Below, one piece after another: positions 11,235 to 60,399 of a DNA stretch of 64,000 bases. How positions within the stretch are numbered: position 1 is the first letter of the stretch; each line of letters opens with the position of its first letter. The stretch is from Synechococcus sp. A18-25c. Its GTDB lineage: Bacteria > Cyanobacteriota > Cyanobacteriia > PCC-6307 > Cyanobiaceae. The translations under genes were made by a program, and so were the position numbers. Below the pieces are notes generated by a model that did not search any database, was not told the origin of the DNA, and worked only from the letters and a program-made list of their open reading frames with translations. The DNA is taken from NCBI RefSeq assembly GCF_014280035.1, contig NZ_CP047957.1:372001-436000 (forward strand), written 5' to 3'.

Positions 11235-11555
11235 TCAGAGCTTCACTTCGATGTCAACGCCACTGGGCAGATCCAGCTTCATCAGGGCATCAATCGTCTT
11301 GGCAGACGGGCTATAGATGTCGATGATGCGGCGGTGGGTGCGCGTCTCGAAGTGCTCACGGGAGTCTTTGTCGACGTGCGGGGAGCGGAGCACGCAGTAG
11401 ATCTTGCGCTTCGTGGGAAGAGGGATCGGGCCGATAGCAGTCGCTGCTGTGTTGTCAGCCGTTTCAATGATTTTGTCGCAGGACAGATCCAGCATGCGGC
11501 GGTCAAACGCCTTGAGGCGGATGCGGATCTTCTGCTGAGCGATGGCAGTGGACAT
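11235..11555 (-). CDS. rpsJ: 30S ribosomal protein S10
   Basis: A 106-residue protein with the S10 signature ([42 protein letters not shown], the tRNA-binding-region loop). S10 sits in the 30S head and also acts in NusB antitermination. As in other cyanobacteria it lies after tufA in the str cluster instead of heading the S10 operon. A likely terminator and a TTGACA promoter element separate it from tufA. Confidence 0.97.
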
Positions 11556-45496: not shown

Positions 45497-46366
45497 TCAG
45501 GCATGGTGTGGCCAAGGTGGTGGATCCGGGGGCGGATCTTCCGAGGCCAAAAAATACGTCGGTTGACAATCGTACCAGCCGCCCTTGCTAAAGATCTCCT
45601 CGGGGTACCCAGCGCGCAGCAGGCACAGACCCTGGGCCGGTGCTCCATCTTTCACTTCATGCCGTCGACGTTCACGCCAGCGTTGCTCGAAGTGTCGCAG
45701 GGTCAGTCGGTGTTCTCCCACAGCCACCAGTTGGCCCATGAGCAAGCGAACCATGCCATACAGGAATCCACTGGCCTGGATCTCGACATGAATTAGATCT
45801 CCCGCGCGCTGAATGCAAACGTCTTGAATCGTGGTGCGGGAGTGTGCGCGTCGACTGCCGGCGCGCTGAAACGCTGCGAAGTCGTGGCTGCCAAGCAGGC
45901 CTTGCAGCGCCTGCTTCATCACCTGTTCATCAAGCCGCGCCTGGTAGCGATGCCAGCTCCACGGTGCAAGAAACAGGTTGGGGCGACGACCGTTGTAAAC
46001 GGTGTAGCGATAGCGCCTGTAACTCGCGGAATAGCAGGCATGCCAGTCGAGCGGTCGCTCCACTGCCTCACGCACTCGGATCGAACCAGGCAGTCGCCCG
46101 TTCAACGCTGGTGCCCATCGGCTCGCGGGGATGGGACCACTGCAATCGAAGTGGACCACCTGTCCAGCGGCATGAACTCCGGAATCGGTGCGACCGGCGG
46201 CCACGCTGTTCACAGGCCGGAGGGGATCCAGGGCTGCGATCGCGTCATCAAGGACGCCTTGAACGCTGGTGCCCTGACGCTGCCGTTGCCAACCGCAAAA
46301 AAAAGACCCCTCGTACTGAAGACTGAGGGCAATGCGTCGTGGACGATTGCCCTCAAGTTCAGTCAA
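45497..46366 (-). CDS. truA: tRNA pseudouridine synthase A
   Basis: A 289-residue enzyme modifying uridines 38-40 in tRNA anticodon stems. The catalytic Asp61 lies in [15 protein letters not shown]. The [15 protein letters not shown] and [11 protein letters not shown] motifs follow. The N-terminal part contains a run of eight T on the coding strand within GSFFCGW, a potential slippage site. Embedded between rplQ and rplM, as is common in cyanobacteria and Gram-positives. Confidence 0.96.
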
Positions 46367-52925: not shown

Positions 52926-53327
52926 TCAATAGACGTAGCAGAGCACTTCACCGCCGACGCCTTGTTTGCGGGCGTCGCGGTCGCTCATCACACCCTTGGA
53001 GGTGGAGATGATGGCCACCCCCAGTCCGCCGAGGACCTTGGGAAGGCCGCGGGTGTTCTTGTAGATGCGCAGGCCAGGCTTGCTCACGCGCTGCATCGAG
53101 CGGATGGTGGGCTGGCGGTGCTTGCCGCTGTACTTCAGCTCCAGCACCAGACTGGTGTGGACGCCTTCGCCTTCTTCACTGATTTCGGCAATGAAGCCTT
53201 CCTGCTGCAGCACTTTGGCGATGCTGCGCGACATGCGGGAAGCGGGAACTTTCGTGTTTTGGTGACGTTTCTCACTCGCATTACGAATGCGGGTGAGCAT
53301 GTCGGAAATAGGGTCGTGATTGGCCAT
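52926..53327 (-). CDS. rpsH: 30S ribosomal protein S8
   Basis: A 133-residue 16S-binding protein: [42 protein letters not shown] and the end [29 protein letters not shown] 53327 is the canonical start; the longer frame upstream overlaps rplE. In E. coli S8 represses the spc operon. A matching site was not identified here. Note the absence of rpsN (S14) between L5 and S8, usual in cyanobacteria. Confidence 0.97.
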
Positions 53328-53346
53328 GGTGGTTTCCGAGGAGGGC

Positions 53347-58884: not shown

Positions 58885-59540
58885 CACTTACCTCCTTTGG
58901 CGGGCTTGGCACCCACGCGATTGGCGGGACGGATGTTCAGCAGTGAGCCGGGCTTGCCGGGCACAGAGCCTTTGACCACGAGCAGATTGCGATCACTGTC
59001 CACTTTGAGGATGGTCAGAGCGCGTGTGGTGGTCTTCTTTCCGCCGTAGCGGCCTGCCATCCGCTTGCCGGGATAGATCCGTCCAGGCGTGGTGCCTGCA
59101 CCGGTCGAACCAGGTTCGCGGTGGTTCTTTGAACCGTGCGTCATCGGGCCACGGCTGAAACCGTGGCGCTTCTGATAACCAGCGAAGCCTCGGCCCATGG
59201 TGTCGCCACTGACGTCAACCTTCTGGCCGGCTTCGAAATCACCAACGGTGATGGCGCCACCCAGCTCGAGACCACTCAGGTCGTCGACGCGGTACTCACG
59301 CAAATGACGGAGCACCCCATCACCTGACTTGGCGAGGTGACCCTTAGCGGGCTTGTTGACCAGCTTGTCGCGCGTTTCGCCAAAGCCGATCTGGACGGCC
59401 TCATAGCCGTCAGTTTCTGTTGTCTTGAGTTGGGTGATCCGGCAAGGGCCCGCCTCGATCAAGGTGACCGGGACGGCTTTGCCTTGCTCATCGAAGAACT
59501 GGGACATACCCAGCTTCTTCCCAAGGATGCCGATGGACAT
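58884..59540 (-). CDS. rplC: 50S ribosomal protein L3
   Basis: A 218-residue protein: [51 protein letters not shown]-type central loop and [12 protein letters not shown]. It is the first gene of the long minus-strand ribosomal cluster. ATG 59540 is canonical. No Shine-Dalgarno precedes it; instead the mRNA reads ATTACCTCCC right before ATG, an anti-Shine-Dalgarno-like stretch. Its leader is highly structured. Confidence 0.97.
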
Positions 59541-59640
59541 GGGAGGTAATGACGCCAGCGTGGACAACCTTCATTGCTGCGGCTGAACGCTGCAGAAATG
59601 ACGGCCTGAAGGGCGCTGATCGATTGGACGCAGTCATGAC

Positions 59641-59674
59641 CGAAATCGCAGAACGAAGCCGTTCTGGCGTTTCG
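59641..59674 (-). promoter_or_regulatory. Long bulged hairpin in the rplC leader
   Basis: CGAAA/TTTCG, CGC/GCG and AGAACG/CGTTCT stack into 14 base pairs with one single-base bulge on each side and a four-base loop (GCTT on the minus strand). It lies 101 bases upstream of the rplC ATG. No T-run follows, so it resembles a regulatory leader stem more than a terminator. Confidence 0.65.
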
Positions 59675-59713
59675 GATTGGGGCTAGCGAGCGAATCAGCT
59701 GGCTGGGACTTGC

Positions 59714-59730
59714 CCGATCAGGAGGATCGG
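59714..59730 (-). promoter_or_regulatory. Leader hairpin with a CTCCT loop
   Basis: CCGATC and GATCGG form a perfect six-pair stem. On the minus strand the loop is CTCCT, resembling the 16S anti-Shine-Dalgarno core. It lies 40 bases upstream of the long bulged hairpin. Confidence 0.45.
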
Positions 59731-59783
59731 TAGTTTCCCGGCAGCGCATCGAACAAGTTCGTTGAGCTGCTCTGGCCTGTGGA

Positions 59784-59801
59784 TCCGGCGCAATCGCCGG
59801 A
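59784..59801 (-). promoter_or_regulatory. Perfect 7-bp hairpin in the rplC-ndhN gap
   Basis: TCCGGCG and CGCCGGA pair perfectly around a four-base loop. It could belong to the rplC leader or to the upstream part of the ndhN region, since the transcription starts are unknown. Confidence 0.45.
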
Positions 59802-59937
59802 CCTGCTCGTCGTACTGGAGGCCCGGCTAGCGGACGGGCACAGATCGACAGAGCAAACAAAAACACTACACCACGGGGTTCCTGATTCCCTAGCCCTCGC
59901 TTCTACTGCCAGACTCCCCACCATCTGAATTAAATCC

Positions 59938-60399
59938 ATGCCGTTGTTGCTTTCAGGTCGGGGCTTCCGCCGTGAACTGGAGTCGGCTGGAGTGATGGCG
60001 GTTCATGCCCCCCTTGAGGGCGGTGCGGAGACACGACTGCTGCGACGCCTTCGTGCCGCCGGTTATCGCACGCAGATCACCTCCGCTCGAGGCCTTGGTG
60101 ATCCTGAGGTCTTCCTCCTCCAGAAGCACGGCATCCGACCGCCCCATCTTGGTCATCAGAGCGTTGGCCGAGGTGCCGCCGTCGGGGAAGTTCAAGAGGT
60201 GATCCCTCAGCTCGGCGAAGTGTTGCTCGGGGACAAGCCTGTAGTTCTCTGGTTGTTGGAGGGTCAGGTGCTGTCGCGTTCGGAGCTGCTGTCGCTGTGC
60301 GATCTCTGTCGCCGTGAGCCTCGTTTAAAGATTGTGGTGGAGATGGGTGGGGCCAGAAGTCTTCGTTGGCAACCTCTGAGTCAGCTTCTCGGGGTCTGA
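59938..60399 (+). CDS. ndhN: NAD(P)H-quinone oxidoreductase subunit N
   Basis: A 153-residue peripheral subunit of the thylakoid NDH-1 complex, specific to oxygenic phototrophs and needed for cyclic electron flow and respiration. It has [44 protein letters not shown] and [30 protein letters not shown]-like text typical of the family. It is divergent from the ribosomal cluster and followed after 12 bases by ldpA in the same reading frame. Confidence 0.95.

Follow-up and report, generated by a model that had tools for sequence, protein, structure and literature searches.

A candidate S8 operator in the rplC leader of the fused S10-spc operon of cyanobacteria

The leader RNA of the main ribosomal-protein operon in Synechococcus sp. 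A18-25c contains a hairpin, designated P5, whose letters are those of the binding site for ribosomal protein S8, and rpsH, the gene encoding S8, is gene 14 of the same operon. The leader is therefore most likely an S8 operator heading a fused S10-spc operon and not an L3 or L4 leader, a candidate assignment that sequence comparison makes very probable. Through it S8 would probably register its own excess and lower expression of the operon. Little is settled about what governs this operon beyond the enterobacteria, and here a candidate regulator, S8, is put forward together with its putative site to single bases. The site occurs in most cyanobacterial families that were surveyed, among them that of the ocean's most abundant photosynthetic cells.

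Genomic locus and structure of the leader RNA

The window, i.e. the whole 64,000-nt stretch of DNA that was analysed, carries rplC (ribosomal protein L3; 58884-59540, minus strand), the operon's first gene, identified as an open reading frame with a match to Pfam PF00297. Its ATG lies at 59540 on the minus strand, and 397 nt separate the gene from the divergently oriented ndhN (59938-60399, plus strand; PF11909). The minus-strand run after rplC comprises rplD, rplW, rplB, rpsS, rplV, rpsC, rplP, rpmC, rpsQ, rplN, rplX, rplE, rpsH and more genes, the names other than those of rplC and rpsH being taken from translations. The gene of the proposed regulator, rpsH (52926-53327, minus strand; cluster gene 14), was identified from its open reading frame, PF00410 (E 3e-49) and S8 chains in the PDB. 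rpsJ has left the rplC operon, as the earlier note on this DNA had claimed, and is located at 11241-11525 on the minus strand. We infer that rplC and rpsH are co-transcribed in the source organism. For S. elongatus, a ribosomal-protein operon is reported to be transcribed as a single unit of 31 ORFs (PMC3219970), and in Synechocystis 6803 the operon start is reported to lie 337 nt upstream of rpl3 (PMC3925133), so that the leader is long there too. The rplC start in the window has a pyrimidine-rich stretch instead of a Shine-Dalgarno sequence; Prochlorococcus is said not to depend on Shine-Dalgarno sequences (PMC5607370).

To relate the leader to its relatives, 80 rplC loci (the best 80 of 558) were used, which together with the window gave 80 intergenic regions. 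In 79 of these best 80 loci the upstream side of rplC again carried ndhN, the exception being L078. The intergenic regions of the relatives contained near-invariant blocks on the rplC sense strand, and these lay well upstream of the hairpin described in the earlier note (P8, below). The conserved structured region defines a predicted 5' UTR of ~316 nt (59541-59856, minus strand), its 5' end being placed by a -10-like hexamer, TAGTGT (59863-59868, minus strand), an instance of a TANNNT motif that recurs before P2. TANNNT occurred 24-36 nt before P2 in 80/80 leaders (from the window and the best 80 of 558 loci) and in 98/480 control windows, a range that was picked after the sequences had been seen. 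A strict two-hexamer sigma-70 scan of the leader region returned no promoter. Transcription is predicted to start near 59856; the predicted promoter thus lies upstream of P8, in agreement with the earlier note, which required a start not downstream of its stem.

For the structural analysis, leader cores were extracted from 76 of the 80 intergenic regions, of which 48 remained after near-identical sequences were dropped and 44 after four with long inserts were omitted. A structure of helices P1-P6 was drawn by hand and counted on the unfitted alignment of these 44 leaders. As a result, 82.6% of the cells were paired compared with 70.7% in shuffles, changes on both sides of a pair were found in 308 cells compared with 116, and the covariation was 0.403 compared with 0.192; shifting the partners by one to three columns lowered the fraction of paired cells to 32-48%. 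A covariance model (R1) of the 161-nt leader core upstream of P8, built from the 44 leaders, gave one match in each of 81/81 rplC sources (the window and L001-L080, the best 80 of 558), 44 of which had themselves built the model. A structured leader before rplC, as had been suggested earlier, is therefore strongly supported by covariation in relatives.

The leader begins with P1 (59804-59855, minus strand, as are all elements below), in which 59846-59855 pair with 59804-59812 and 8/9 pairs show both-sided changes, with 64.8% of the cells paired in the unfitted 44-leader alignment. P1 encloses P2 (59821-59839), the hairpin GCCCG[UCCGCUAGC]CGGGC, which was paired in 99.1% of the cells of 44 sequences and carries element A (59826-59832) in its loop; P2 and its loop are nearly invariant in their own family. 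P3 (59782-59803) was paired in 93.2% of the cells, with both-sided changes in 9/9 pairs, and P4 (59741-59770) in 88.8%, with such changes in 5/5 pairs. The closing stem P6 (59701-59777), in which GGC at 59775-59777 pairs with GCC at 59701-59703, surrounds P4 and P5 and was paired in 96.2% of the cells. P5 itself (59705-59739), the proposed S8 operator, reads GGGAAACU...AAGUCCC; its base was paired in 98.9% of the cells of the 44 leaders and its apical part in 47.1%. The register of the two weak helices, P1 and apical P5, is lost by MAFFT. Further downstream, P7 (59615-59699), in which GCUGAU at 59694-59699 pairs with AUCAGC at 59615-59620, was seen in the sequence and encloses P8 and the preceding element B (59679-59688; CGCTAGCC), also seen in the sequence, a second CGCUAGCC copy and a possible competitor of element A.

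A simple consensus scan found no terminator-like site in 59500-60000, which makes intrinsic attenuation in the rplC leader unlikely. When the window was compared with Rfam 15 at E up to 5, the three weak matches all fell outside the leader, and in 16 other loci a tRNA was the sole match at E up to 0.5.

Identity of hairpin P5 and its place in cyanobacterial genomes

S8 binds helix 21 of 16S rRNA through a core described as A595-(A596-U644), (G597-C643)-U641 and the invariant A642, and the first triple of the E. coli spc mRNA is A+80-(A+81-U+11) (PMC4176348). In P5, the GAAACU strand (59737-59732) places A59736, A59735, A59734, C59733 and U59732 at 16S positions 640, 641, 642, 643 and 644, and the AAGUC strand (59711-59707) places A59711, A59710 and G59709 at positions 595, 596 and 597. 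Every S8 core position named in the accessible text of PMC4176348 is thus present in P5 of the window. Position 641 is A in P5, in the organism's own 16S rRNA and in the E. coli operator alike. Helix 21 of the own 16S rRNA reads CAAGUC...GGAAACUG (CAAGTC...GGAAACTG in DNA letters; also given as TTCAAGTCTGCTG...CAGTGGAAACTGTTGGG). It shares its internal-loop letters with P5, whereas the strands of this primary S8 site are joined at the opposite end, a circular permutation. R2, a covariance model of P5 built only from rplC leaders of Cyanobacteriia, did not match 16S helix 21, in which the strands stand in the opposite order. Mimicry of 23S rRNA was also considered; the 23S-side locus, which starts in the 3' part of 16S, yielded nothing convincing when it was scanned with R2 and for the letters of P5.

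Read in the strand order of the leader, the E. coli spc operator is GAAACUG...CAAGUCCC and the leader GGGAAACU...CAAGUCCC; in E. coli rplE, GAAACT lies at +6 to +11 and AAGTCCC starts at +80. Both sites have the same protein-contact letters, GAAACU...AAGUC, in the same strand order, and both lie on an mRNA that encodes S8 (PMC4176348, PMC10931766), rpsH being on the same strand and in the same cluster as P5 with co-transcription inferred. The E. coli site, however, is located inside its operon at the third gene (rplE), with U+11 and A+80 far apart, and the first genes are reached by retroregulation. In contrast, P5 forms a compact hairpin that lies in the fused operon's 5' leader and precedes its first gene by 164 nt. 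The spc operator was the best R2 match in a 3-kb E. coli stretch, with a weak score (11.2 bits, E 0.064 in 7.5 kb) owing to its long loop.

P5 was also traced outside the family, in the rplC upstream regions of 60 cyanobacteria. The pattern [AG][AG]A[AT]ACT followed by AGTC[CT] within 130 nt, searched up to 600 nt upstream of rplC, was present on the sense strand of 53/60 regions, compared with 2/60 on the antisense strand. Among the regions missed, R2 added L165, whose site lies ~640 nt upstream and hence past the 600-nt limit, and confirmed L137 and L166; L172 (15.9 bits) was doubtful, and L153 gave 12.4 bits at a start taken from a partial rplC match. No P5 was found within 600 nt upstream of rplC in L145, L147, L148, L149 and L152 (families f47 and f55). 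A tighter search collected 50 sites, with an outer pair of GC in 33, AT in 12 and GT in 5. Forty of these (up to 48 nt long) and 14 leaders hand-picked from the family's 80 were combined into an alignment of 54 rows (A3), in which 91.5% of the cells were paired and the helices on both sides of the S8 loop covaried, with both-sided changes in 115 cells compared with 35 in shuffles. Its outer pair was GC in 34 rows, AU in 15 and GU in 5, with no mismatch, though the regex permitted one. The S8 core columns were invariant in 54/54 rows; the collecting regexes demanded GA[AT]ACT and AGTC[CT] and set no requirement for the letter at A595, for the outer pair or for the apical stem, so that the invariance of all core positions but A595 was largely built in.

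Within the family, a strict P5 with AAGTC was found in 76/80 leaders (from the window and the best 80 of 558 loci). Three leaders (L003, L033 and L038) have CAGTC, with C replacing the A595 equivalent, a natural variant at that position, and in L036 both strands are present at a spacing beyond the 90-nt limit. P5 before rplC was the sole strong R2 match in the window (26.2 bits, E 7e-6), the next one, at 46314 on the opposite strand, scoring 12.5 bits, and no strong match fell at the rplE initiation site. Among the matches listed for 18 genomes of Cyanobacteriia outside the family, most of which had also contributed to R2, the match lay on the same contig and strand as rplC in 18/18, at a distance of 145-423 nt upstream. 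The whole-genome runs of R2 covered Cyanobacteriota; in 244 genomes of the phylum, 100 had a match at E up to 0.05. The model is insensitive at this scale, missing 14 of 24 listed own-family genomes in which R1 finds the leader. Second or odd R2 matches (L183 and L185-L189) were located in or beside unrelated genes and were treated as noise.

Of the 244 phylum genomes, those matched by R2 included 21 of family f31, which lies outside the class. When 11 of these matches were examined (L176-L184, L191 and L192), 10 sat 9-16 nt before the start methionine of S8, the remaining one (L183) being a second match in genome G381 and not at rpsH. The downstream ORFs read as S8, and Pfam Ribosomal_S8 was found in three of three checked. 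A second sample of 60 f31 genomes gave R2 matches in 14 and rpsH in 55. The strict site was present in the 110 nt before rpsH in 12 of the best 30 f31 loci, and these same 12 matched R2 below E 0.001 (29 loci searched). The likely ligand is thus S8, whose core P5 fits position by position and whose gene R2 marks in f31, and not L3 or L4, which the earlier note had suggested testing. The odds of the S8 reading are left unchanged by the counter-results, since none of them bears on this fit.

Two further observations were made before rpsH in f31. L212, L216 and L220 contain TATACTG...AAGTAG, seen by eye, which look like S8 loops with a compensated pair, U-A replacing G-C. L177 and L195 have, in addition to the strict site, a CTACTG...CAGTAAGTG pair just upstream, perhaps a tandem site.

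Complementarity to the rplC start region and alternative readings of the leader

Element A in the P2 loop is complementary to element C (GCUGGCG; 59553-59559), which lies 13-19 nt before the rplC ATG. At least 6 of the 7 A-C pairs were present in 77 of 78 leaders (among the best 80 of 558), whereas shuffled versions of A reached this in 11.7 of 78 on average and in 20 at most; chance pairing is inflated in this count because element A holds the self-complementary GCUAGC. The outermost pair was mismatched in 37/78 leaders. Both-sided changes were few, and the pair-keeping exchanges (CG to AU, GC to AU, and UG/UA to CG) each occurred in few leaders. Complementarity beside the start codon suggests a way to block initiation in the own family.

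Under such a scheme, free S8 made from rpsH of the same long operon would bind P5 when rRNA is short; with a start well upstream of rplC and one long operon transcript, S8 could meet P5 on the same mRNA. Binding would stabilise the folded leader, and in picocyanobacteria it might do so via a long-range helix in which element A of the P2 loop pairs with element C. This helix would close the start site, so that rplC initiation would fail, and the coupled downstream genes, including rpsH, would be under-translated or their mRNA would decay. The A-C mode of action is offered tentatively, at slightly less than even chances. With three mutually complementary copies of GCUAGC/GCUGGC (59826-59832, 59679-59688 and 59553-59559), the leader might alternate between the pairings A-C and B-C (or A-B). 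In high-light Prochlorococcus leaders, A and C are kept and B is mostly absent.

The distribution of the full leader is narrower than that of P5. R1 matched 197/200 whole genomes of the order, with no match in G166, G189 and G191; G032 had two matches, the sole such genome among the matches listed for the order. Across the phylum it matched 35/291 genomes under strict filters, all in the own family (f1), which suggests that picocyanobacteria acquired P1-P3 as an extra 5' domain. In L115, L116 and L128, from other families, the leader is possibly just a closing stem (for example GUCGCC with GGCGAC) and a -10-like site around the S8 hairpin. The restriction of the P1-P6 model to one family and the near-invariance of P2 and its loop would also fit a leader with two ligands, in which P5 binds S8 while P1-P3 binds something else, be it L4, L3 or a small molecule. 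This is unlikely, as conservation of the P2 loop is at least partly explained by complementarity to element C and nothing points to a second ligand.

Considerably less probable is a leader controlled by L4 as in E. coli, with the likeness to the S8 site arising by chance. L4 controls the E. coli S10 operon and rplD is gene 2 of the operon here, but the described S8 core positions fit, the surrounding helices covary, and R2 marks rpsH itself in f31 and has no match on the E. coli S10 leader. Both leaders head an operon starting with an S10-type gene block. That of E. coli, however, precedes rpsJ and works with an attenuator (PMC10931766), whereas the leader described here has a different motif, precedes rplC, stands apart from rpsJ and has no terminator-like site. 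A link to the S10 operon had been drawn before: cluster 5 of Axmann et al. (2005), with one predicted sequence each from SS120, MIT 9313 and WH 8102, was annotated as 'rplCD operon leader, corresponds to Escherichia coli S10 r-operon' (PMC1242208), and the statement that no leader motif had been described for cyanobacterial rplC is corrected accordingly. That prediction came from conserved structure (Z -7.58 and -10.18) at the same locus in three marine picocyanobacteria and, in the accessible text, is given without a ligand, an anatomy or a MED4 sequence (PMC1242208). The present work widens its range to the entire family, including high-light Prochlorococcus, and to further cyanobacteria.

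The dense structure of the region might also belong to a separate small RNA rather than to an rplC leader, and intergenic small RNAs (Yfr RNAs) are known in these cyanobacteria (PMC1242208). This is again highly improbable: a terminator-like site is missing, the region keeps its complementarity to element C next to the start of rplC, and P5 stays before rplC where the other neighbour changed, ndhN being within the fetched 700 nt in 3/20 regions outside the family.

The preferred reading, an S8 operator, has a precedent in Synechocystis, for which Dienst et al. (2014) speculated about S8 autoregulation of the fused S10-spc operon (PMC3925133). Their candidate was the 91-nt rpl5-rps8 spacer (PMC3925133), whereas here the site is in the rpl3 (rplC) leader; the corresponding rplE-rpsH spacer of the window is 19 nt (53328-53346) with no R2 match. 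Neither Rfam nor the literature searched, in which few subscription papers were covered, contained an S8 site in a cyanobacterial rplC leader, and a 2024 review describes phylogenetic studies of spc mRNA control as not advanced (PMC10931766). On balance we favour a scenario in which S8 alone, acting at the 5' leader, controls the entire fused S10-spc operon of Cyanobacteria, replacing separate control by L4 and S8. The operator would sit on rpsH in f31 and at the operon head in most photosynthetic families. In picocyanobacteria, a long-range helix would have been acquired as well, linking the S8 domain to a start codon that lacks a Shine-Dalgarno sequence. If the same protein has been retained by an operator found now at rpsH, now at rplE and now at the head of a fused operon, this would represent regulatory rewiring.

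The variable hairpin P8

P8 (59640-59675, minus strand) is the hairpin of the earlier note and a variable part of the leader. Its sense strand (59675-59640) reads CCGAAACGCCAGAACGGCTTCGTTCTGCGATTTCGG. The hairpin exists with one bulged base per side, as had been described, and has 15 pairs instead of 14, the outermost C-G pair (59640/59675) lying one base beyond the span given before. It does precede rplC; with rplC on the minus strand and its ATG at 59540, the spacing between stem and start is counted as 100 nt and not 101. The folding z of the plus strand of 59600-59780 was -3.15 (1/200 shuffles as low), and that of a 75-nt sense stretch containing P8 was -2.1.

Conservation of P8 was weak. 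Element B (GCTAG[CT]), which precedes it, was absent from 34 of the 77 leaders entered (3/80 left out; among the best 80 of 558), mostly those of high-light Prochlorococcus type, and in the other 43 the stretch after element B had a mean folding z of -0.82, with 8/43 below -1.5. The alignment for P8 was unfitted and comprised 23 of 31 extracted marine relatives, the eight most divergent-looking having been left out by hand. In it, 56.1% of the cells were paired, compared with 50.1% in shuffles and 29-47% in slid versions. The covariation of 0.172 exceeded that of shuffles (0.125; 1/500 as high), with slid versions reaching up to 0.157; RNAalifold did not recover the stem from the marine-relative alignment. 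P8 is the leader's most variable part and not its conserved element; it was rejected as the key element, given the weak conservation and the choice of RNAalifold, and is best seen as a spacer hairpin. That P8 alone should be the regulatory element, for L3 or L4, is the least probable reading, in spite of a stable stem 100 nt before rplC and a closing CCG/CGG base that recurs in some marine relatives, given the weak conservation and the preceding element missing from those 34 leaders. Besides P8, the leader contains several stable stems.
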